Shown: piece by piece, positions 16,005 to 29,313 of the stretch
How positions within the stretch are numbered: position 1 is the first letter of the stretch
Layout: each line of letters opens with the position of its first letter
Source of the DNA: Phenylobacterium sp.
GTDB lineage: Bacteria; Pseudomonadota; Alphaproteobacteria; Caulobacterales; Caulobacteraceae
Direction of reading: 5' to 3'
NCBI RefSeq assembly: GCF_030693625.1
Contig: NZ_JAUYAF010000084.1
Span: forward strand, 39,521-103,520
DNA length: 64,000 nucleotides
The notes under the pieces: generated by a model
What the model was told of the DNA's origin: nothing
What the model saw: only the letters and a program-made list of their open reading frames with translations
The model's database searches: none
Position numbers and translations under genes: made by a program

Positions 16005-16982
16005 ATGAGCCAGACGGACATGACCGCCATCGCCGTCGAGGGTGGCAAGGGCTCCGCCGCCGACATGAAGGCCGTGCAGCTGCCGCGTCCGGAGGCCGGC
16101 CCTGGGCAGATCCTGATCAAGGTGGCCCATGCCGGCGTCAACCGCCCTGACCTGATCCAGCGCATGGGCTTCTACCCCCCGCCCCCCGGTTCCCCCGACA
16201 CCATGGGCCTTGAGGTCTCCGGCGAGGTGGTCACCGGCGCGGGCCGCTGGAAGGCGGGTGATCAGGTCACCGCCCTGCTGGGCGGCGGCGGCTATGCGGA
16301 ATACGCCGTGGTGGACGCCCGCCATGCCCTGCCGATCCCCAAGGGGCTGTCCCTGCTGGAGGCCGCGGCCCTGCCGGAAACGGTCTTCACCGTCTTCGCC
16401 AACGTCTTCGAGCATGGGAGCCTGAAGGCCGGCGAGACCTTCCTGGTGCACGGCGCCACCTCGGGCATCGGCACCACGGCGATCCAGATGGCCAAGGCGG
16501 CCGGCGCCAAGGTGATCGCCACGGCGCGCGGCGCGGGCAAGGCCGCCGAGGCCAAGGCGCTCGGCGCCGACGTGGTGGTGGACACCACGGCCGAGGACTT
16601 CGCCGAGGTCGCCAAGCGTGAGGGCGGCGTCGACGTGATCCTCGACATGGTCGGCGGCGACTATTTCGCCAAGGGCCTGGACGCCCTGAAGACCGGCGGC
16701 CGGATCGTGTTCATCGCCAGCCTGGGCGGCGGCGAGGTGGCCCTGCCGATCGGCAAGTTGATGATGAAAAGGGCCACGGTGACCGGCTCGACCCTGCGGC
16801 CCCGCAGCCTGGACGAGAAGGCGCGATTGGCGGCGGCGGTGGAGGCCACAGTCTGGCCCTGGATCGAAGCCGGGAAGCTGCGTCCCCGGATCGACGCCAG
16901 CTTCCCCCTGGCGGAGGCGGGAAAGGCCCACGCGCACCTCGAGGGCGGGGCGCACGTGGGCAAGGTGATGTTGACGGCCTAA
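16005..16982 (+). CDS. NAD(P)H:quinone oxidoreductase (PIG3/QOR-type MDR)
   Basis: Medium-chain dehydrogenase without zinc sites, 325 aa. The GroES-like N-terminus holds AGVNRPDLIQRMGFYPPPPG, typical of the PIG3/TP53I3 subgroup, and the Rossmann domain has HGATSGIGTTAIQMAKAAGA. It likely reduces quinones by one electron using NADPH. The last 4 bp overlap the 3' end of the nitrate ATPase gene on the other strand. Substrate is inferred from family. Confidence 0.9.
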   Translation: MSQTDMTAIAVEGGKGSAADMKAVQLPRPEAGPGQILIKVAHAGVNRPDLIQRMGFYPPPPGSPDTMGLEVSGEVVTGAGRWKAGDQVTALLGGGGYAEYAVVDARHALPIPKGLSLLEAAALPETVFTVFANVFEHGSLKAGETFLVHGATSGIGTTAIQMAKAAGAKVIATARGAGKAAEAKALGADVVVDTTAEDFAEVAKREGGVDVILDMVGGDYFAKGLDALKTGGRIVFIASLGGGEVALPIGKLMMKRATVTGSTLRPRSLDEKARLAAAVEATVWPWIEAGKLRPRIDASFPLAEAGKAHAHLEGGAHVGKVMLTA

Positions 16983-17764
16983 GCTGCGCGGCGGGCGTAG
17001 AGGAACTCGATCACCGAGGCCCGGGCGCCGACATAGGTCGGGTTCCCGGCGACCGCGAGCCGGTCCCGCGGCCGGGCCAGGTCCACGCTGAGGATCTGGC
17101 CGACCCCGGCGCGGGGGCCGTTGGTCATCATCACGATGCGGTCCGAGAGCAGCACCGCCTCGTCGACATCGTGGGTGATCATCAGGACGGTGTTCTTCAG
17201 CGCCGTCTGAATCTCCATGACACTGTCCTGCAGATGGGCGCGGGTCAGGGCGTCCAGGGCGCCGAAGGGTTCGTCCAGCAGCAGCACCTTGGGCTGCATG
17301 GCCAGGGCCCGGGCGATGCCGACCCGCTGCTTCATGCCGCCGGAGATTTCCGAGGGGCGCTTGTCGCGGGCGGCGGTCATCTTGACCAGGTCCAGGTTGT
17401 GCAGGGTCCAGTCGCGGCGCTCGGCGGCGGACTTCTTGCCGGCGAACACCTTGTCCACCGCCAGGCGGACATTTTCCTGCACCGACAGCCAGGGCAGCAG
17501 GGAGTGGTTCTGAAACACCACCGCCCGCTCCGGCCCCGGCGCCTCCACAGCCTCGCGGTCGAGGATCACCGCGCCCGTGGTCACCGGGATCAGGCCCGCC
17601 ACCACATTGAGCAGCGTGGATTTCCCGCAGCCGGAGTGGCCGATGATGGAGACGAACTCCCCCTGGTCGACCTGCAGGTTGATGTCGCGCAGCACCTCCG
17701 AACGGCTCGCGCCCTTCTGGAAGGTGACGCCGACGGCTTCGATGGAGAGATAGGCCTTGGCCAT
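16979..17764 (-). CDS. ABC transporter ATPase, nitrate/sulfonate family
   Basis: A 261-aa ATPase with Walker [10 protein letters not shown], signature [15 protein letters not shown], Walker [13 protein letters not shown] and the switch His (MITHDVDEA). It resembles NrtD/SsuB/TauB. Last gene of the porin-binding protein-permease-ATPase operon, 12 nt after the permease. Together with the ANTAR-type leader upstream, the likely substrate is nitrate or nitrite. Confidence 0.92.
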
Positions 17765-17775
17765 GGTCAGGCTCC

Positions 17776-18651
17776 TTAGCTCAGCGCGTCGCCGCGCGAG
17801 ACGATGCGGCCGGCGAAGGCCACGATGCGGTCCAGGAAGAAGCCGGTGAGACCGACCCAGGCCAGGGCCACGACGATGTCGGAGATCCGCGACGCATTGT
17901 ACTGGTCCCAGATGAAGAAGCCGACGCCGACGCCGCCCAGCAGCATCTCCGAGGCGACGATGGCCAGCCAGCTCATGCCCACGCCGATGCGCAGGCCGGT
18001 GAAGATGTAAGGGGTGGTGGCCGGCAGCAGGATCTTGAAGAAGTACTCCACCGGAGACAATCGCAGCACCCGGGCGACGTTGACGTAATCGTCGGGAATG
18101 TTCCGCACGCCGACGGCCGTGTTGATGATGATCGGCCAGATCGAGGTCACGAAGATCACGAACAGGGCCGAGGGGTTGGCCTCGTGGAAGGCGGCCAGCG
18201 AGATCGGCAGCCAGGCCAGGGGCGGCACTGTCCGCAACACCTGGAAGATTGGATCCAGACCCCGGTGCGCCCAGCGGTTGGCGCCGATCAGCACCCCCAG
18301 CAGCACCCCGCAGACGGCCGAGATGGAGAAGCCCAGGGCCACCCGCTGCAGGCTGGTGGCGATATGCCAGAAGAGGCCCTTGTCCACCCCGCCGCGGTCA
18401 TAGAACGGGTCGACAATCAGCTCGCGGGATTCCAGCCAGATGCGCGAGGGCGAGGGCAGGCCGTCATAGGAGTCGCCGCACGCCAGCTGCCAGACGGTCA
18501 TGATGATCAGCAGGGTGAAGGCCGGCGGCAGGACGGCCGCCGCCGTCGCCGAGGCCCGCCGCGTCAGCCCGGCGAAGGGCTGGGGTGGCGGGTCGGGAAG
18601 GTCCACGGCGACCGGTTGGCTGGCGGTGAATTCAGGCTTGGGGAAACTCAT
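17776..18651 (-). CDS. ABC transporter permease, nitrate type
   Basis: A 291-aa inner-membrane permease. The frame is open into the upstream gene; ATG 18651 (MSFPKPEFTAS) gives the usual length. Six hydrophobic segments and the EAA-type loop are present (VARVLRLSPVEYFFKILLP). DPIFQVLRTVPPLAWLPISL is typical of NrtB/SsuC/TauC permeases. It lies 11 nt after the binding-protein gene. Confidence 0.91.
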   Translation of the reverse strand: MSFPKPEFTASQPVAVDLPDPPPQPFAGLTRRASATAAAVLPPAFTLLIIMTVWQLACGDSYDGLPSPSRIWLESRELIVDPFYDRGGVDKGLFWHIATSLQRVALGFSISAVCGVLLGVLIGANRWAHRGLDPIFQVLRTVPPLAWLPISLAAFHEANPSALFVIFVTSIWPIIINTAVGVRNIPDDYVNVARVLRLSPVEYFFKILLPATTPYIFTGLRIGVGMSWLAIVASEMLLGGVGVGFFIWDQYNASRISDIVVALAWVGLTGFFLDRIVAFAGRIVSRGDALS

Positions 18652-18662
18652 CGGCGCGCGCC

Positions 18663-19943
18663 CTAGACCAGTTTCTTGATGGGCTGGCTGGCGAGGTAGG
18701 CGGCCGGGTTGGCGGGGTCGAAGACCTTGCCGTCGAAGAAGCGCTCCACGCCGCGGCTGTCGCCGGCCGGGGCCGGTTGGCCGATTGCGGCAGCCGCCGC
18801 TCGCCAGATGTCGGAGCGGTTGACCTTGTTCACCAGGGCCTTGGTGTTGGTGGCCCTGGGCAGGACGCCCCAGCGCACGTTCTCGGTGGCGAACCACAGA
18901 TCGTGGGACTTGAAGGGGAAGCTGGCGTTGTCGGCCCAGAACTTCATGGTGTGGGGCGACTTGGCGACCTTGCGTCCGTCGCCATAGTCGATGGTCCCTT
19001 GCAGGCGCGGCAGGATGTCGCCCATGGGCACGTTGATATACTGCCGCCCCGAGACGATGGAGCACATGGCCGGGCGGTTGCTCATCTTGTCGCACCAGAG
19101 CTGGGCCTCCAGCACCGCGGCGGTGAGCGCCTTGGCGGCGCGCGGATAGCGGTCCACCCAGTCGGCGCGCATGCCGAGCGCCTTCTCGGGGTGGTTCATC
19201 CAGATCTCGCTGGTGGTGGTGGCGGTGTAGCCGATCCTCTGGTTCACGGTCTGGGCGTTCCAGGGTTCACCGACGCAGAAGGCGTCCTGGGTGCCGGCCT
19301 TCAGGTTGGCCACCATCTGCGGGGGCGGGATGACGATGGTGGAGACGTCGGTCTCGGGATTGATGCCGGCCGCCGCCAGCCAGTAACGGATCCACAGGTC
19401 GTGGGTCCCGCCCCGGAAGGTCATGGCGATCTTGGCCGGGTTCTTGGCCGCCTTGAGCTGGGCGAACTTGGCCTTGGCGCCGCTGGCGTCGAGGCCGACC
19501 TTCACAGCCTTGAGGTCGTTGCCCACGGAGATGGCCTGACCGTTGGTGTTCAACCGGGCCAGGATGTACATCGGCAGCGGCTTGCCCCCGGTCTGGACCC
19601 CCAGGGTGAACTGCAGGGGCATGGGCGACAGGATGTGCGCCCCGTCGATGCCGCCGCCGCCCGATCCCAGCACCAGGTTGTCGCGAGTGGCGGCCCAGGA
19701 GGCCTGTTTCACCACCTCCACATCCGGCAGGCCGTGCTTGGCGAACAGGCCGCGCTCCTTGGCGATGATCAGGGGCGAGGCGTCGGTCAGCGCGATGAAG
19801 CCCATCCGCGCCTTGGCCACCTCGGGGCCCGCGCCCGCGGCGAAGGCGCCGGAGGGCAAGGCGGCCTTAGCGGCCGCCAGGGTGGCGGCCGTGGCGAAGA
19901 TGGCGTTGCGGCGGGTCAGGCCAGCGTCGGTCTTGTCGGTCAT
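18663..19943 (-). CDS. Tat-exported nitrate-type ABC substrate-binding protein
   Basis: A 426-aa NrtA/CmpA-family binding protein. Start at ATG 19943 (MTDKTDAGLTRRNAIFATAA) gives a clear twin-arginine signal. Mature domain motifs: GFIALTDASPLIIAKERGLF near the N-terminus, NLVLGSGGGGIDGAHILSPMP, and AFCVGEPWNAQTV in the binding cleft. The length and these motifs point to nitrate, nitrite or bicarbonate rather than sulfonates. It follows the porin by 13 nt. The open frame upstream to 20054 overlaps the porin and is not used. Confidence 0.9.
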   Translation of the reverse strand: MTDKTDAGLTRRNAIFATAATLAAAKAALPSGAFAAGAGPEVAKARMGFIALTDASPLIIAKERGLFAKHGLPDVEVVKQASWAATRDNLVLGSGGGGIDGAHILSPMPLQFTLGVQTGGKPLPMYILARLNTNGQAISVGNDLKAVKVGLDASGAKAKFAQLKAAKNPAKIAMTFRGGTHDLWIRYWLAAAGINPETDVSTIVIPPPQMVANLKAGTQDAFCVGEPWNAQTVNQRIGYTATTTSEIWMNHPEKALGMRADWVDRYPRAAKALTAAVLEAQLWCDKMSNRPAMCSIVSGRQYINVPMGDILPRLQGTIDYGDGRKVAKSPHTMKFWADNASFPFKSHDLWFATENVRWGVLPRATNTKALVNKVNRSDIWRAAAAAIGQPAPAGDSRGVERFFDGKVFDPANPAAYLASQPIKKLV

Positions 19944-19956
19944 GATCAGGGTCCGC

Positions 19957-21324
19957 CTAGAGCTTGTATTCGAGGGTGAGCCAGGCCTTGGAGCGCGAGG
20001 CCGGGGGCGCGAGGGTTCCGACGGGCACGGTGGCCTCGCGCCGGAAGTCGGCATATTTCAGCGCGATCGACAGCTTGGCGGTGATGGCCGCTGTGAGCTG
20101 CACATCCCACTCCGACCCCAGGTCCGCCCCGGTCCGCTGACCGTCGAAGTCGTGGTAGCGGACCAGCAGGTCGGTGTTGAACAGCCAGGTCCGCCGGAAG
20201 CGCGGCTTGACGTTGAAGCTGATGTTCTTGTCGTCGATCCCGTCGGCGAAGCTCTTGTTGCCGCCGGGCGAGACGAAGGCGTCCGACCAGCCCTGGAAGG
20301 CGTGCACGGTGGCCAGCGGCGTGGTGAAGCCCCGCACCCCGTCGCCCTCGAGGGACTCATAGGCCAGCTTGAGGGTGTAGATGTCGAAGGTCCCGGCGAC
20401 ATCGGCGGCCACATAGTCGAGGTCGAAGGCCGCGGTATTGCCGCGATACTCGCTCTGCACGGCATAGGTGGCGTTGTAGGCCACCTGGTAGAGCCCGAGC
20501 CAAGCCTTGCCCGAGGCCTTCCCCCCCTTGGTGACGGACGAATTGATCGCCGAGTTTCCGAAATCCAGCGCGTAGACGAAGCCCTGCAGGCGCAGGGCCT
20601 CGGACGGCGACCAGGTGACGTTCAACAGGTGGCTGTCGCTATCCCAGTCGCGCAGCTCGCCGAGGATGCGGTTGATGTGGGTGACGTAGGCGTAGGTCCC
20701 CTTCACCCGCCCCAGGGCGAAGTCGGCCCGCACGCTGTCGAAGGTCTGCTCGTCCTGCCGCCAGCCGACATTGCCGACGAAGCGCTGGTCGTCCAGCAGG
20801 ATGCGCTGACGGCCGGCCGTGATCTGCAGGGCCCCGTTCGGGGTCCAGGTGAGGTGGGCGCGGTTCAGCTCAGTGACGTCGGGATCGTTGATGATCGGAT
20901 AGCGGGCCTTGTCCGCGCCGTTGAGCGGCGGGGTCGCGGCGCCCGGCACATTGACCGCGAAGTGTTCGGGGCCGATCTGCCGGACGTCCTCGAACTCGAT
21001 CAGGCCCTTGAAGCCCTTGAAGTCGGCGGTCTCCCAGCCGAGGCGGGTGCGGACCGTGAAGGCCTGGCCGTCCTCACGCAGCATCGCGGTCCGGGTCTGA
21101 TCGACCCCCTCGTAGCGGGCGCGGACCTCCAGCAGCAGTCGGCCGGCGGCGATCTGGTCGCTCAGGGTCGGTTCGGGCGCGGGCGGCGGCGCGGGCTCCA
21201 GGGGGACCTCGGCCTCAGGCTCGAGGGCCGCAGCCGGATCGACTTCCTGAGCCTGGGCCAGCCCCGCCCAGAGAAGGGCTGCGACACCTGATCCCAGGGC
21301 GAGCCGTGTCTTGGTTCTTTTCAT
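19957..21324 (-). CDS. Outer-membrane porin (alginate-export-like), nitrate operon
   Basis: A 455-aa beta-barrel protein. ATG 21324 begins a Sec signal (MKRTKTRLALGSGVAALLWAGLAQAQ), then a Pro/Ala-rich linker. The mature part has many alternating strands and an arginine-rich start (LLLEVRARYEGVDQTR). It resembles the alginate-export/porin family that sits beside nitrate ABC operons in Caulobacterales. The C-terminus LTLEYKL is a typical final barrel strand. It is the first gene of the operon and lies directly after the ANTAR-type leader. Confidence 0.82.
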   Translation of the reverse strand: MKRTKTRLALGSGVAALLWAGLAQAQEVDPAAALEPEAEVPLEPAPPPAPEPTLSDQIAAGRLLLEVRARYEGVDQTRTAMLREDGQAFTVRTRLGWETADFKGFKGLIEFEDVRQIGPEHFAVNVPGAATPPLNGADKARYPIINDPDVTELNRAHLTWTPNGALQITAGRQRILLDDQRFVGNVGWRQDEQTFDSVRADFALGRVKGTYAYVTHINRILGELRDWDSDSHLLNVTWSPSEALRLQGFVYALDFGNSAINSSVTKGGKASGKAWLGLYQVAYNATYAVQSEYRGNTAAFDLDYVAADVAGTFDIYTLKLAYESLEGDGVRGFTTPLATVHAFQGWSDAFVSPGGNKSFADGIDDKNISFNVKPRFRRTWLFNTDLLVRYHDFDGQRTGADLGSEWDVQLTAAITAKLSIALKYADFRREATVPVGTLAPPASRSKAWLTLEYKL

Positions 21325-21343
21325 GCCTGCATCCCCCGCGGCC

Positions 21344-21386
21344 AAAAAAAAACGCCCGGCGAAGCCGCGGCGCGGCCTCTCCGGAC
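21344..21386 (-). terminator. Leader terminator of the nitrate operon
   Basis: In the sense strand GTCCGG pairs with CCGGGC, enclosing an inner GCCGC/GCGGC hairpin, followed by nine T. It ends 20 nt before the porin ATG, so it would stop transcription before the operon. Its 5' arm (GTCC at 21383-21386) is also the 3' arm of hairpin P2, making the two structures mutually exclusive. Confidence 0.82.
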
Positions 21387-21459
21387 GTCGTTGTCCCTTC
21401 CATCCGACGATCGTCGCCGGCGGCCCTGTCGGGCCTGCGCGGAACCTCGTTGCCCCGCG
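21383..21459 (-). promoter_or_regulatory. ANTAR-type two-hairpin antitermination leader
   Basis: Two hairpins with hexaloops. P1 (21438-21459) is an 8-bp stem CGCGGGGC / GTTCCGCG with loop AACGAG. P2 (21383-21396) is GGAC / GTCC with loop AACGAC. Both loops have A at position 1 and G at position 4, the signature of RNAs bound by ANTAR proteins such as NasR and NasT. P2 overlaps the terminator's 5' arm, so ANTAR binding would prevent termination. No ANTAR gene is in this window. The promoter is presumably near or above 21500. Confidence 0.75.
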
Positions 21460-21511
21460 TGTCGCCCCTAGGGAGAGGCCGGCCGCGCGGCGCGGCAATG
21501 GGAAACCGGCG

Positions 21512-23279: not shown

Positions 23280-24764
23280 ATGAGCGCAACCTTCGCCGTG
23301 GGGGCGCGCCCCCCGGTCGGATTGAGCACAAAGTTGCTGTACGGCCTTGGCTCTGTGGCCAACGCCATCAAGGCGCGGGGTCTCTCAACCTTCCTGTTGA
23401 TCTTCTACAATCAGGTGGTGGGCCTACCGCCACAGATGGTCTCCACGGCGATCTTCATCGCCCTGATCTTCGACGCCTTCTGCGACCCTCTGGTGGGCCA
23501 GATATCCGACAATTTCCGGTCGCCCTGGGGCCGCCGCCACCCCTTCATGTATGCGGCCGCCCTACCGGTGAGTGTGGCCTTCTTCCTGATCTGGAACCCG
23601 CCCTCAGGCTGGAGTCAGGGCGAGCTGTTCGCCTACATGCTGGTCTGCTTGCTGGTGATCCGGCTGTTCGACACCTTCTTCGAACTGCCGTCCTCAGCTC
23701 TCGCACCGGAACTGTCGGAGGACTACAACGGGCGCACGACCCTGATCGCCCTGCGCGGCATGTTCGGGGTCTTCGGCGGCCTGGGCATGACCCTGCTGGT
23801 CTACCAGGTGTTCATGAAGGAGAACCCGGATGGCACCGGCGGCATCACTGAACGCGCCGGCTATTTCGGCTATTCGCTGTTCGCCTCCATCGTCATCTTC
23901 TGCGTCATTCTGATCTCCACCACGGGCACCTTCAGACAGATCCCCTATCTGCGGCAGCCGCCGGTCCGCAAGATTGGGGCTGGGCAGATGGCTCGGGAGA
24001 TCGCCAGCACCCTCAACAATCGCTCCTTCCTGGTGGCGACGGCGGCCGGGATGTTCATCGCCATCGCCTTTGGGCTGAAGAACGCCCTGGATATCTATTT
24101 CGCCCTCTACTTCTTCCTTCTTACCCAGACCCAGCTTTCGATCCTGACCGCGGTCGGGGTGATCGCCAGTCTCATGGGCGTGGCGCTCGCGCCGCGCGCC
24201 GGCGCCTGGCTGGGCAAGAAGCACGCCGCCATCCTGATGTTCATCGGCGCCCTGACCACAAGCGTGATGCCGCTGACCCTGTCCCTGATGCACCTGGCGC
24301 CCGCGCCAGGATCTGAGAACATGTTCCGCTTTCTGACGGTCGAGATGTTCTTCAGCACCACCATGGCGACAATCACCGGGGTGCTGTTGTCCTCGATGAT
24401 CGCCGACGTGGTGGAGGATTCGGAGGTCAAGACGGGTCGCCGCTCAGAGGGCCTGCTGTTCTCCGCCGACAACCTGTTCAAGAAGATCGTCTCGGGCATG
24501 GGGGTGCTGATCTCGGGCAGCCTGCTGGCCTACGTCAACTTCCCGACAAACGCCAAGCGCGGGGAAGTCGATCCGGCGATCCTCCGGGAGCTTGCCATGA
24601 TCTACCTGCCGACGGCGGTCCTGATGTTCGCCGTCGCGATCCTTTGCCTGTTCGCCTTCAAGATCGACAAGGCCGCCCATGAGTCCAATCTGGAGAAACT
24701 GAAGGACGCCGCTGTCCTTGCCGCCCAGTCCGGAGCCGAGGGTCGGATAGCCCCAGGAAGCTGA
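23280..24764 (+). CDS. GPH-family sugar:cation symporter 1
   Basis: A 494-aa, 12-segment inner-membrane transporter of the glycoside-pentoside-hexuronide (GPH/MelB-XylP) family. Landmarks: DAFCDPLVGQISDNF (cation-site Asp residues), WGRRHPFMYAAALP, ELPSSALAPELSEDYNGRT, and MIADVVEDSEVKTGRRSEGLLFS in the second half. First of three tandem relatives on the plus strand. Substrate not readable; the family uses Na+ or H+ with sugars, and bacterial members beside SDR genes may move other compounds. Confidence 0.88.
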   Translation: MSATFAVGARPPVGLSTKLLYGLGSVANAIKARGLSTFLLIFYNQVVGLPPQMVSTAIFIALIFDAFCDPLVGQISDNFRSPWGRRHPFMYAAALPVSVAFFLIWNPPSGWSQGELFAYMLVCLLVIRLFDTFFELPSSALAPELSEDYNGRTTLIALRGMFGVFGGLGMTLLVYQVFMKENPDGTGGITERAGYFGYSLFASIVIFCVILISTTGTFRQIPYLRQPPVRKIGAGQMAREIASTLNNRSFLVATAAGMFIAIAFGLKNALDIYFALYFFLLTQTQLSILTAVGVIASLMGVALAPRAGAWLGKKHAAILMFIGALTTSVMPLTLSLMHLAPAPGSENMFRFLTVEMFFSTTMATITGVLLSSMIADVVEDSEVKTGRRSEGLLFSADNLFKKIVSGMGVLISGSLLAYVNFPTNAKRGEVDPAILRELAMIYLPTAVLMFAVAILCLFAFKIDKAAHESNLEKLKDAAVLAAQSGAEGRIAPGS

Positions 24765-24837
24765 ATCCAGAGCCGGACATCCAAGCCGGGCAAATCACCT
24801 TGCGGCAGGACCCGCGCCCTCAGCCCAAGAGTCGCCC

Positions 24838-26331
24838 TTGTCTCAAGACCAACCGCAGGCGCCGAGCGCGCCGAGGCTCAACCTCTCGACCAAGCTCTCC
24901 TACGGGGTCGGCTCCATCGCCGTCGGGGTCTCCGTGCTGGGCCTGTCGGCCACCCTGCTGCAGCCCTATCTGAACCGGGTCATCGGCCTGCCCGCCCTCT
25001 GGGTCGGGACGGCGATCATGCTGACCCTGATGCTGGACGCGGTCATCGACCCGGCCATCGGCCAGTGGTCGGACAAGCTGCGCACCCGCTGGGGCCGTCG
25101 GCACCCGTTGATGTATGCCTCGGCGCCCCTGATCGCGGTGGCCTGCATCGCCTTCTGGAACTCGCCGTCCGACTGGCCTGTGACCACCACGGGCATCTTC
25201 GTGATCGGGATGCTGGTGTTGCTGCGGCTCTGCGTCAGCCTCTATGAGATCCCGTCCTCGGCCTTGGCGCCCGAACTCACCAGCGACTACCACCAGCGCA
25301 CCAGCCTGTTCAGCTACCGGTTCTTCTTCGGGGTCGTAGGCGGCCTGGGGATGAACGTGGTGCTTTACCAGGTCTTCCTGTCGCCGGCGGCGGGGGGCAT
25401 CCTGAACAAGGCCGGGTACGCCAATTTCGGCATCCTGGCGGCCGGCGTGATGGCGGTCTCCATCCTGGTCTCGGCCATGGGGACGCACCGGCACATCAAG
25501 GACCTGTACCAGCCCCCGGTCCGCAAGGTTCCGCTCCGCCAGGTGGCCAAGGAAATCGTCGGCACCATCGGCAACCGCTCGCTGATCGTGGTGATGATCT
25601 CCGGGCTCTGCTCGGGGGTCTCCACCGGCCTGTCGGGGGCGCTCAGCCAGTATTTCTACATCGAGCTCTGGGGCGTCAGCGCCGCCTCGATCTCCTACAT
25701 CTCCATGGCCGGCGTCCTGGCCTCGGTGTCCGGCGTCATCGTGGCCGGTCCCACCTCGAAGAGGCTGGGCAAGAAACGGGCGATGCTGATCCTCTTCACC
25801 TGCTCAGTCCTGACCTCGGCCATACCTCTGTCGCTGAAACTCCTGAACCTCGCGCCCACCGACAGCGCCATGGTCCTGACCCTGTTGCTGGTGGACTATT
25901 TCATCGCCACGACCCTGGCGATCGCCGGCTTCATCATCATCTCCTCGATGATCGCCGACGTGGTGGAGGACGCCGCGGTGAAGACCGGGGTGCGGTCGGA
26001 GGGCCTGCTGCTGGCCGCCAACGGCTTGCTGCCCAAGTTCACCGGCGGCATCGGCGTGTTCCTGTCAGGCGTCCTGCTGACCCTGGTGGCCTTCCCCACC
26101 CATGCGGCGGCGGGCACGGTGGACCCGGAGATCATGCGCCGACTGGCGCTGATCTTCCTGCCCATCAACACCGGCATGAGCCTGCTCTCGATCCTCGTCC
26201 TGCTGCCCTACAAGATCGATGAGGATCTGCACGCCAGCAATGTCGCCACCCTGGAGGAGGCCGCCGCCGTGGCCGAGCGGGTCCGCGTCGCCGAGGCTCG
26301 CCCCGTGGTCGACGGCGCCGGCGGCGCCTGA
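24838..26331 (+). CDS. GPH-family sugar:cation symporter 2
   Basis: A 497-aa relative of its neighbours. Start is TTG at 24838 (MSQDQPQAPSAPRLNLSTKLSYGVGS), since no ATG or GTG occurs before the conserved first membrane segment. Motifs: DAVIDPAIGQWSDKL, WGRRHPLMYASAP, EIPSSALAPELTSDYHQRT and MIADVVEDAAVKTGVRSEGLLLA. It is the most divergent of the three in the first membrane segments. 73 nt separate it from gene 1. Confidence 0.86.
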   Translation: MSQDQPQAPSAPRLNLSTKLSYGVGSIAVGVSVLGLSATLLQPYLNRVIGLPALWVGTAIMLTLMLDAVIDPAIGQWSDKLRTRWGRRHPLMYASAPLIAVACIAFWNSPSDWPVTTTGIFVIGMLVLLRLCVSLYEIPSSALAPELTSDYHQRTSLFSYRFFFGVVGGLGMNVVLYQVFLSPAAGGILNKAGYANFGILAAGVMAVSILVSAMGTHRHIKDLYQPPVRKVPLRQVAKEIVGTIGNRSLIVVMISGLCSGVSTGLSGALSQYFYIELWGVSAASISYISMAGVLASVSGVIVAGPTSKRLGKKRAMLILFTCSVLTSAIPLSLKLLNLAPTDSAMVLTLLLVDYFIATTLAIAGFIIISSMIADVVEDAAVKTGVRSEGLLLAANGLLPKFTGGIGVFLSGVLLTLVAFPTHAAAGTVDPEIMRRLALIFLPINTGMSLLSILVLLPYKIDEDLHASNVATLEEAAAVAERVRVAEARPVVDGAGGA

Positions 26332-26394
26332 CGCAAGACGGCGGGGAGGCGGCGAGCTAAGGTCTCAAGAACAATACAAGTTCGGGGGGACGAC

Positions 26395-27882
26395 GTGAGC
26401 CAGGCCGCATCAGACGCTCAAACCGGTCGCCGGTTGAGTATGCCCACCAAGCTGTTCTACGGCTTCGGATCCGTGGCCTTCGGGGTCAAGGACAACGGCT
26501 TCTCGTACTTTCTGCTGATCTTCTACAATCAGGTCATGGGCCTGCCGGCTGAGACGGTGGGCCTGGCGATCATGATCGCCCTCATCGTCGACGCCTTCCT
26601 CGATCCGATCGTCGGCCAGGCCTCGGACAACTACCGCTCCAAGTGGGGCCGCCGGCACCCGTTCATGTACGCCGCCGCCCTGCCGGTGGCGGTCTCCTAC
26701 CTGCTGCTGTGGAACCCGCCCAAGGCGCTCGATCACCAGGGGCTGTTCTTCTACCTGATCGGCACGGCCATCCTGATCCGCAGCTTCATCACCTGCTACG
26801 AGATCCCTTCCTCGGCCCTCGCCGCCGAGCTGACCACGGGCTACGACGAGCGCACCAAGCTGCTCAGCTACCGCTTCCTGTTCGGCTGGATCGGCGGGCT
26901 GGCGATGTATTTCGCGGCCCTGAAGATCTTCCTGACCCCCGACGCCACCCACAAGGTCGGCCAGCTCAATGTCGAGGGATACGCCCACTACGGCCTGGCC
27001 GCGGCCCTGCTGATGCTGTTGGCCATCCTGGTGTCGGCGCTGGGCACCCACAGCCAGATCCCGTTTCTGCGCGACGCGCCGCACCGCAAGCTCAGCCTGC
27101 CGACCCTGGCCCGCGAGATGGTGGGCACGCTTTCCCATCGTTCGTTCCTGCGCATTCTGACCGCCAACCTGTTCGGGGCCATGGCGAGCGGGCTGACCCT
27201 GTCCATCAGCCTCTATTTCACGACCTTCTTCTGGGAGTTCAGCTCGGCGCAGATCGCGCTCTTCACCTTCGCCAGCCTGACGGCCGCTGTGTTCGCCTTC
27301 GCCACCGCCCCGATGTTCTCGCAGAGGTTCGGCAAGAAGCGCTCGGCCATGACCCTGCTGCTGATCGGTGTCGCGGTGGGGGTGAGCCCCATCATCCTGC
27401 GCCTGATGGGCCTGTTCCCCGAGAACGGCAGCGCCCTGCTCTTCCCGCTGATCTTCCTGCAGAACGTGATCTCCACCGGGGCCACCATCACCTCCAACAT
27501 CCTCACCTCCTCAATGATCGCCGACGTGGTGGAGGACTCAGAACTGCAGACCGGCCGCCGGTCGGAGGGACTATTCTTCGCGGCTTCGGCCTTCGTGGCC
27601 AAGGCCGTCACCGGGATCGGCATCTTCACCTCGGCCATGCTGCTGAAGGCCGCGGCTTTCCCGCAGGGCGCCAGGCCGGGCGAGGTGGACCCCGCCGTCA
27701 TCGCCCGCCTGGGGATGATCTATGTGCCGGTGCTGGTGGTGCTCTACGGCCTGTGCGTGATCTTCATGGCCGGTTACCGCATCACCCGCGAGAGCCATGC
27801 GGAGTCGCTGCGCAAGCTGGCGGCGGCGGCGGACCTGGTGAATGAGGGCGAACCGGCTGGCGGGACCGACAAGCTCAGCTAG
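26395..27882 (+). CDS. GPH-family sugar:cation symporter 3
   Basis: A 495-aa third copy, starting at GTG 26395 behind a strong GGGGGGA site. Motifs: DAFLDPIVGQASDNY, WGRRHPFMYAAALPV, EIPSSALAAELTTGYDERT and MIADVVEDSELQTGRRSEGLFFA. By motif it is nearer gene 1 than gene 2. The 3' end faces the double-TetR gene 63 bp away. Confidence 0.87.
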   Translation: MSQAASDAQTGRRLSMPTKLFYGFGSVAFGVKDNGFSYFLLIFYNQVMGLPAETVGLAIMIALIVDAFLDPIVGQASDNYRSKWGRRHPFMYAAALPVAVSYLLLWNPPKALDHQGLFFYLIGTAILIRSFITCYEIPSSALAAELTTGYDERTKLLSYRFLFGWIGGLAMYFAALKIFLTPDATHKVGQLNVEGYAHYGLAAALLMLLAILVSALGTHSQIPFLRDAPHRKLSLPTLAREMVGTLSHRSFLRILTANLFGAMASGLTLSISLYFTTFFWEFSSAQIALFTFASLTAAVFAFATAPMFSQRFGKKRSAMTLLLIGVAVGVSPIILRLMGLFPENGSALLFPLIFLQNVISTGATITSNILTSSMIADVVEDSELQTGRRSEGLFFAASAFVAKAVTGIGIFTSAMLLKAAAFPQGARPGEVDPAVIARLGMIYVPVLVVLYGLCVIFMAGYRITRESHAESLRKLAAAADLVNEGEPAGGTDKLS

Positions 27883-27945: not shown

Positions 27946-29175
27946 CTACCGGGCGAAGATTCCCATCAGCATGGGCCTCGCGAAGACCGAGGGGGCGGCC
28001 TTCTGGGTCACGCCCGGCACCCAGAAGCCGAGCTCGGCGCCGGCGTTCAGGGTGGCGTTCAGCATCTGGGCGGCGATGAAGGGATCCACCGGCCGGATCG
28101 AGCCCTCGGCGATGCCGTCGGAGATCATCGAGGCGAAGCGGTCGGAGACCCGGTTGGAGTGGGCCACCTGCTCATCGCGCATGGCCTCGGGCAGGGCCGA
28201 GAGCGCCGAGGTGCGCAGCAGCGGTCCGTATTCGGAGAGCTGGTACTCGGCCAGCGCCGCCGCCGCGCTGGAGAGCTTGCTCCACTGATCGCCGGGCAGG
28301 CTCATGGCCAGGCGCTGCACCCGGCGCATCACCTCGAAGGTGCGGTCGAAACAGGCCACCACCAGGTCGTCCTTGGCCTCGTGGTGATGGTAGAAACTGC
28401 CCTTGGTGACGTTCAGCTCCGCGGAGATCTTGTCCACCGAGGCGCCCTTGTAGCCCCGGCTGTTGATCAGCCGGGTCGCGGCCAGCAGGAAGATCTCGCG
28501 GCCCAGCTCTGCGCCGTCGGAAGCCGCCAGCTCGGCGAGGGGCGCCGGGGCCGGGGCCCATTCCGCGCCCTCCACGGCCAGGCCGCCGGTGAGGATGTCG
28601 AACATCCGGTCGCAGATACGGTCGTAGTCCTCGGGGTCGTACTTCGGCAGCCAGGCGCCGGCCCAGAACAGCTGCTCCAGCAACATGTGGGTCCGCGCCG
28701 TCCGGCGGCCCCGGCCCAGCCAGGCCAGGTCTGGGGTGTCGAACAGGCTCCGCACCTTGCGGAACAGCTTCATGAAGGCGTCGAACACCTCGGTGCGGCG
28801 CGGATTGTTGAGGGCCCGGATATCCGACAGCTCCGGCAGCGGCGGGGCGGCGCCGATGGCGCCCTGGCGCACCCGCTCCAGATAGAGCTCCAGCAGCCTC
28901 CGCAGGCGCTCGGTGGGGGTCTTCTCCGCCAGGGCGGTGTCGGCGGCCTGGGTCAGCCAGTCGATGCCGCGCATCAGGCAGGCGGCGGCGAGGTCGTCCT
29001 TGCGCTTGAAGTAGTAGGTGACGCTGGTGGTGGACAGGCCGACGGCGGCGGCGGCCACGCCCAGGGTCAGGCCCTTCACCCCTTGGGTGTTGAGGATGAC
29101 CGTGGAGGCGTCGAGGATGGCGTCGCGCTTCTTCTCGAAGCGGTCCGTCGACCGGGCGACGTTGCGTTCCGCCAT
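27946..29175 (-). CDS. Double-TetR transcriptional regulator
   Basis: A 409-aa protein made of two complete TetR units. The first helix-turn-helix lies at about residues 17-62 (AAVGLSTTSVTYYFKRKDDL) and the second at about 226-272 (AELNVTKGSFYHHHEAKDDL); each is followed by a TetR ligand/dimer domain. ATG 29175 follows GGAGGGGAG. Such tandem TetR proteins may fold as an intramolecular dimer. Convergent with the GPH genes, whose regulation it may control. Confidence 0.88.
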   Translation of the reverse strand: MAERNVARSTDRFEKKRDAILDASTVILNTQGVKGLTLGVAAAAVGLSTTSVTYYFKRKDDLAAACLMRGIDWLTQAADTALAEKTPTERLRRLLELYLERVRQGAIGAAPPLPELSDIRALNNPRRTEVFDAFMKLFRKVRSLFDTPDLAWLGRGRRTARTHMLLEQLFWAGAWLPKYDPEDYDRICDRMFDILTGGLAVEGAEWAPAPAPLAELAASDGAELGREIFLLAATRLINSRGYKGASVDKISAELNVTKGSFYHHHEAKDDLVVACFDRTFEVMRRVQRLAMSLPGDQWSKLSSAAAALAEYQLSEYGPLLRTSALSALPEAMRDEQVAHSNRVSDRFASMISDGIAEGSIRPVDPFIAAQMLNATLNAGAELGFWVPGVTQKAAPSVFARPMLMGIFAR

Positions 29176-29313
29176 CTCCCCTCCACCCCCGCGCGGCAAA
29201 TCCTGGCCGGTCCGCGACCATCCCTCTGTATCGGACGGGCGATCGCTGCGCCAAGCGGCAAGTTTCCCTGCACGTCACCCGGCGAAACGCAGGCGTGGAA
29301 GGGCGGCGGGACC

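Follow-up and report, generated by a model that had tools for sequence, protein, structure and literature searches.

The closest described systems are the leaders of the eut genes and of nasF, which are controlled by EutV and NasR, respectively, and the NasST systems of Paracoccus and Bradyrhizobium. In E. faecalis, the eut linkers are 5–12 nt long, and induction fell drastically when one of them was changed to 3 or 14 nt (PMC3369931). Antitermination was abolished in vitro by the addition of 20 nt to the linker, and it was proposed that a dimer engages a single hexaloop at a time, first that of the recruitment hairpin and then that of the antiterminator hairpin (PMC8934654). Linkers of 2–25 nt were used in a curation of actinobacterial leaders (PMC8164766), while the original search definition of the dual-hexaloop RNA called the linker 'variable'. 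The NasS and NasT proteins of Paracoccus come apart in the presence of nitrate, and the nasA leader is bound by NasT (PMC3795266). In Caulobacter, NtrC has been located at the promoters of nasT and narK (PMC10274813).

Here, a 64,000-nt stretch of Phenylobacterium sp. DNA (hereafter, the window) was analyzed, in which a two-hairpin ANTAR leader with the complete logic of NasR/NasT-type regulation had been proposed upstream of a porin gene. The results described below make it very probable that, at this leader, NasT mediates transcription antitermination of a porin-nrtABC operon for nitrate uptake.

Leader layout and the interval between P1 and P2

The leader is located upstream of the porin gene on the minus strand, and its elements were arranged in the order P1, H2, H3, P2, terminator, and porin ATG (Table 1). 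Both the P1 hexaloop, AACGAG, and the P2 hexaloop, AACGAC, have A1 and G4 and are closed by a C:G pair; with stems of at least 3 bp, both hairpins are of the dual-hexaloop kind. The 5' arm of the terminator reuses GACGTCC, namely, the end of the P2 loop and the 3' arm of P2, and 19 nt separate the T9 run from the porin ATG (21324). P2 and the terminator are mutually exclusive by sequence and in the predicted fold, the energies being -56.6 kcal/mol with P2 forced and -65.3 kcal/mol with the terminator. In these predicted folds, forcing P2 costs 8.7 kcal/mol, which protein binding would need to offset or pre-empt during transcription. The two A1/G4 hairpins and the shared 3' arm named in the original prediction were seen in the sequence, and their coordinates and energies were computed. 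The proposed two-hairpin logic held for P1, P2, and the terminator, and it missed the two spacer hairpins, H2 and H3, and a linker longer than the published range.

Table 1. Positions of the leader elements and operon genes in the window
Feature	Position	Strand	Description
P1	21459-21438	minus	8 bp, -12.0 kcal/mol; CGCGGGGC[AACGAG]GTTCCGCG
H2, first spacer hairpin	21435-21422	minus	5 bp, tetraloop GACA
H3, second spacer hairpin	21420-21404	minus	7 bp; without a hexaloop in the window
P2, antiterminator hairpin	21396-21383	minus	GGAC[AACGAC]GTCC, 4 bp, -4.0 kcal/mol
Intrinsic terminator	21389-21344	minus	stem from 21389, -30.7 kcal/mol; T9 at 21352-21344
Porin gene, first in operon	19957..21324	minus	Alginate_exp, PF13372, E 1.2e-8
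nrtA-like nitrate-binding protein gene	18663..19943	minus	NMT1_2, PF13379
nrtB permease gene	17776..18663	minus	TIGR01183, above NCBIfam cut-off
nrtC-like ATPase gene	16979..17764	minus	TIGR01184, above NCBIfam cut-off

Folding of 21340-21470 gave a z-score of -3.61, and none of 200 shuffles was as stable. When both strands of the window were scanned strictly for P1, P2, and an overlapping terminator, the leader was the sole site; the same scan gave one weaker, imperfect site in the 39 kb around nasST (L003), and 40 Markov surrogates of the window yielded no site. The pattern of P2 plus a T-run occurred at one place only in the entire genome of 4.12 Mb, as four overlapping rows, and its reversed-pattern control gave one match. 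The Rfam hit that had been suggested as a check was not obtained: nothing reached the gathering thresholds in the window, and no family reached the gathering score for the leader alone, for which the best match was to a microRNA model and lay on the opposite, plus strand (E 0.052). Rfam may hold no ANTAR family.

Of 78 distinct A1/G4-plus-terminator sites, 62 had a further A1/G4 hexaloop upstream (2.4 expected), and 10 had two (0.02 expected). The number 78 exceeds the true number of independent leaders because the scan joined P1 or H3 hairpins to a distant terminator in some cases, as in the second rows for L007, L010, L011, L037, and L099. Linkers were measured at 61 of these sites, leaving out 16 without a C:G-closed upstream hexaloop and one at an edge. 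The short linker of the dual-hexaloop definition was lacking in the window leader, where P1 and P2 are 41 nt apart and H2 and H3 leave approximately 10 unpaired nt in the predicted fold. Similarly, the linker was 40–54 nt in most of the measured Caulobacter and Phenylobacterium leaders, and a first spacer hairpin like H2 folds in Caulobacter and in most of the Phenylobacterium leaders tabulated. The interval folds as one or two hairpins, with a mean z of -2.66 against mononucleotide shuffles and z < -1.5 in 43 of 47 leaders. A small unpaired remainder was also considered as a sign of selected spacing, which the shuffles did not support: for the 35 linkers longer than 25 nt, the shuffled sequences left even fewer unpaired nt (mean 8.0) than the real ones (median 10). 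Therefore, the remainder of approximately 10 nt is not independent evidence for a folded spacer. A better argument comes from the Phenylobacterium leader L041, although it is one example only and was assembled from a metagenome: H2 and H3 are missing, and a P1 and a P2 of the same kind are separated by a linker of 8 nt. Eight Methylobacterium leaders have linkers of 7–9 nt. For the window leader, a folded spacer is the favored reading.

The second spacer hairpin varied among relatives. In Asticcacaulis- and Reyranella-type relatives, H3 carries an A1/G4 hexaloop of its own, which gives three NasT-type loops. This loop was found in 13 of 13 Asticcacaulis-group rows (L019-L027, L029, L031, L033, and L050) despite a changing stem, which in L024, L025, L026, and L029 has only 3 contiguous pairs, and it was also present in L037, L058, L065, L099, L101, L131, and L138. 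H3 is mostly G1/G4 in Caulobacter, and its hexaloop is mostly lost in the Phenylobacterium group of the window. In the 16 non-Asticcacaulis Caulobacteraceae rows with an H3 hexaloop register (including L037, L131, and L138; the minimum-energy loop is smaller in L131, L030, L018, and L138), G4 was present in 15, and the base at position 1 was G in 11 rows, against 3 rows with A and 2 with C. The H3 loop of L012 has 7 nt, and L013 and L028 are outside the H3 loop table.

These loops bear on another reading of the spacer, in which H3 is the natural partner of P2 and P1 is an extra recruitment site; the window lineage would then have lost the middle loop of a three-hexaloop array and would use the outer pair. 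This reading rivals the spacer part only, not control by NasT, and we regard it as a serious competitor, although its chance is somewhat below even. It gains from the constancy of the Asticcacaulis-group H3 loop over varying stems, from the excess of sites with two upstream hexaloops, and from ten loci in which the nearest A1/G4 hexaloop is only 2–12 nt from P2 (L058, L065, L099, L101, L037, L131, L138, L027, L023, and L033). However, H3 has neither an A1/G4 nor a G1/G4 hexaloop in the window and in five Phenylobacterium-group leaders (L034, L042, L043, L044, and L014), the Caulobacter loops are mostly G1/G4, the P1 loop varies less than that of H3 across 17 aligned leaders, and L041 dropped H3 while keeping P1 and P2.

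The operon and the nasST genes

Judging by its gene content, the operon of porin and nrtABC is of the nitrate type, with the nitrate/nitrite uptake or reduction genes that characterize NasST targets. The NrtA-like protein was compared with solved structures, and it matched NrtA (2g29, E 2.8e-162) more closely than bicarbonate-binding CmpA (2i48, E 1.3e-111); its nearest relative in named genomes is from a Phenylobacterium MAG (97% identical). Together with the NCBIfam assignments of NrtB and NrtC, this agrees with the earlier claim of nitrate or nitrite import. NrtA and CmpA are close relatives, so the transporter might carry another anion, such as bicarbonate or cyanate, and merely be co-regulated with nitrate use under a NasT leader. 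This is highly improbable given the far higher NrtA score, the NrtB and NrtC nitrate models above cut-off, and the order nrtC then narK in L037 and L049. An outer-membrane porin and an ABC importer would thereby be tied to nitrate control in one genome.

Further observations were made on these genes and their surroundings. A tandem porin pair was seen in G056, G064, G071, and G086, with the leader between the copies and the upstream copy 59–60% identical to the window porin. On the plus strand of the window, 23280-27882 contains three consecutive ORFs resembling paralogous MFS_2/GPH-type symporters (the first scanned, the others judged by eye). A 417-aa ORF at 27946-29199 of the window resembles, by eye, a head-to-tail fusion of two TetR-type regulators.

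A NasT of 192 aa is the single ANTAR match in the genome. The nasT and nasS ORFs overlap on contig C38 (PF03861 and PF13379), and they are followed by genes for a NarK-family transporter, nirB, a NasC-like molybdopterin reductase, and a uroporphyrinogen methyltransferase. Accordingly, the ANTAR gene that had been looked for is present, and the NasR/NasT-type assignment can be narrowed to NasT with NasS, not NasR. NasT aligns with chains of Rv1626 (1s8n), EutV (6wsh), and NasR (4akk). When this NasT is aligned with Rv1626 and EutV, it has Ala in place of the 'MD' motif Asp, presumably the phospho-acceptor, in keeping with control by NasS.

Conservation and gene order in relatives

Relatives of the porin were found in 41 of 119 family genomes. 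The leader was present at 29 of the 30 best-scoring porin loci among the relatives from these 41 genomes, the exception being L032, so the A1/G4 loops are kept in related species as the original prediction required; in L013, the P2 loop is GATGAC, without A1. No such leader was seen at the two distant porins inspected, namely, the second copy in the same genome (L173) and one in G006 (L174). In the alignment of 17 leaders (alignment A1), C8, A9, A10, G12, and G15 of P1 and all eight stem bases of P2 were invariant. Two-sided changes occurred in at least one sequence at 13 of the 26 predicted pairs of P1, H2, and the terminator, and two-sided compensatory changes were found at 3 of the 8 pairs of P1.

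Unlike Rfam, a model built from this alignment (R1), with the window leader in its training set, gave leader hits in 19 of the 118 genomes of the family. ANTAR genes were found in 37 of the 118, with a single match each, and they were present in 17 of the 19 genomes with R1 leaders vs 20 of the 99 others (Fisher p 1.3e-8, which is only indicative as the genomes are related). Those 20 comprise 13 of the Asticcacaulis group (genus g14), whose divergent leaders are scored poorly by R1, and 7 outside it (G006, G028, G031, G035, G059, G074, and G098). In the 99% complete genome G018, leader-porin-nrtABC was found at L180 (G018:C27) and no NasT was found; L180 is either an orphan leader or the result of an assembly gap. 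G053 (80% complete) likewise has a leader without an ANTAR gene.

The gene order also connects the leader with nasST. In 12 genomes, the leader or porin is directly preceded by nasT on the same strand: G008, G019, G039, G043, and G081, and, in the Asticcacaulis group, G014, G060, G068, G075, G085, G094, and G114. From tblastn and leader positions, the order is nasT-nasS-leader-porin in L170, L037, and L045 and nasS-leader-porin-nrtA in L016 and L049. In the Reyranella-type loci L058, L065, and L101, tblastn gave the order nasT-leader-nasS-nrtABC, and in L099 the contig begins just before the leader. These four loci were ruled out as porin operons because tblastn puts nasS between the leader and nrtA. 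A plain terminator with coincidental hexaloops and other or no regulation, which the leader of G018 without an ANTAR gene would suit, is extremely unlikely in view of the very low chance expectation from the surrogates and hexaloop counts, the A1/G4 loops kept while stems vary, and the co-occurrence and gene order with nasST.

Other features were recorded at these loci. A sigma-54-like site, TGGCA(C/T)-N5-(T/C)TG, was matched upstream of the leader, as a pattern match without a control set, in 18 of 20 non-Caulobacteraceae loci (L053-L112 plus L058, L065, L099, and L101; absent in L052 and L059). Two leaders each were found in G008, G019, and G050, the second directly before narK, and G053 has the narK leader only. 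In all 17 aligned Caulobacter/Phenylobacterium-type narK loci (L002 of the same genome, L140-L155, and L158), a hairpin with the hexaloop AACGGC is located approximately 90–100 nt before the start; in the genome of the window, the loop is AACGAC (L002 12966-12953, minus strand). A second hairpin follows it; its loop is TCGGAT or TCCGAT in Caulobacter and this genome, and a G1/G4 loop such as GATGAA was found in six other loci. No T-run was found near these 17 narK leaders. By its sequence, the narK leader is a possible NasT target without a T-run terminator.

Proposed control and comparison with described systems

NasT binding, the response to nitrate, and antitermination are proposed for this leader by analogy with the characterized NasT, NasR, and EutV systems. 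Without nitrate, NasS would hold NasT, the terminator would form, and RNA polymerase would stop ahead of the porin gene. When nitrate or nitrite is present, NasT would be set free and recruited at P1; it would then bind and stabilize the weak P2, the 3' arm of P2 would become unavailable to the terminator, and the operon would be read. H2 and H3 would shrink the 41-nt interval to approximately 10 unpaired nt, such that P1 and P2 could still act as a pair.

More generally, alphaproteobacterial NasT leaders may be modular, a proposal that we consider as likely to be right as wrong. In place of the strict short linker, one or two hairpins would form a folded spacer over which the recruitment hexaloop could work; in several lineages, the spacer hairpin itself would offer NasT a third hexaloop (of the A1/G4 type, or G1/G4 in Caulobacter), and the narK leader, which has a single A1/G4 hexaloop and lacks a T-run terminator, would be another variant. 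If this is true, ANTAR antitermination would need a revised spacing rule and a revised number of sites. For an ANTAR dimer that engages one hexaloop at a time, the current model of how two hairpins are used leans on a strict short linker. The leaders described here break the linear rule both through folded spacers and through a third loop. The natural series of leaders with 0, 1, or 2 spacer hairpins, with or without the third hexaloop, makes the two-hairpin question directly testable.

In the open-licence literature, as far as its titles go, none was found on this leader or on a three-hexaloop leader, although some of the leaders described here may appear in the tables supplementing PMC3369931. 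According to PMC3369931, PMC7496416, and PMC8934654, the EutV eut and NasR nasF leaders likewise have two A1/G4 hexaloops with a C:G closing pair, a second hairpin overlapping the terminator, nitrogen genes downstream, and an ANTAR gene in the genome. Similarly, according to PMC3795266, PMC5424462, and PMC6759348, the NasST systems of Paracoccus and Bradyrhizobium have a nasT-nasS pair, nitrate-related targets, and a hairpin leader, the Paracoccus nasA leader being described with two hairpins, HI and HII. Unlike these NasST systems, the window system has a porin-nrtABC target on another contig than nasST and extra spacer hairpins; unlike the EutV and NasR leaders, it has a P1-P2 linker of 41 nt filled by two hairpins. 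As this linker is outside the published range, the leader is set apart as a variant within the ANTAR leader family. It probably belongs to the known ANTAR/NasT family, and the extra hairpins between its two loops are not anticipated by the published spacing rule.
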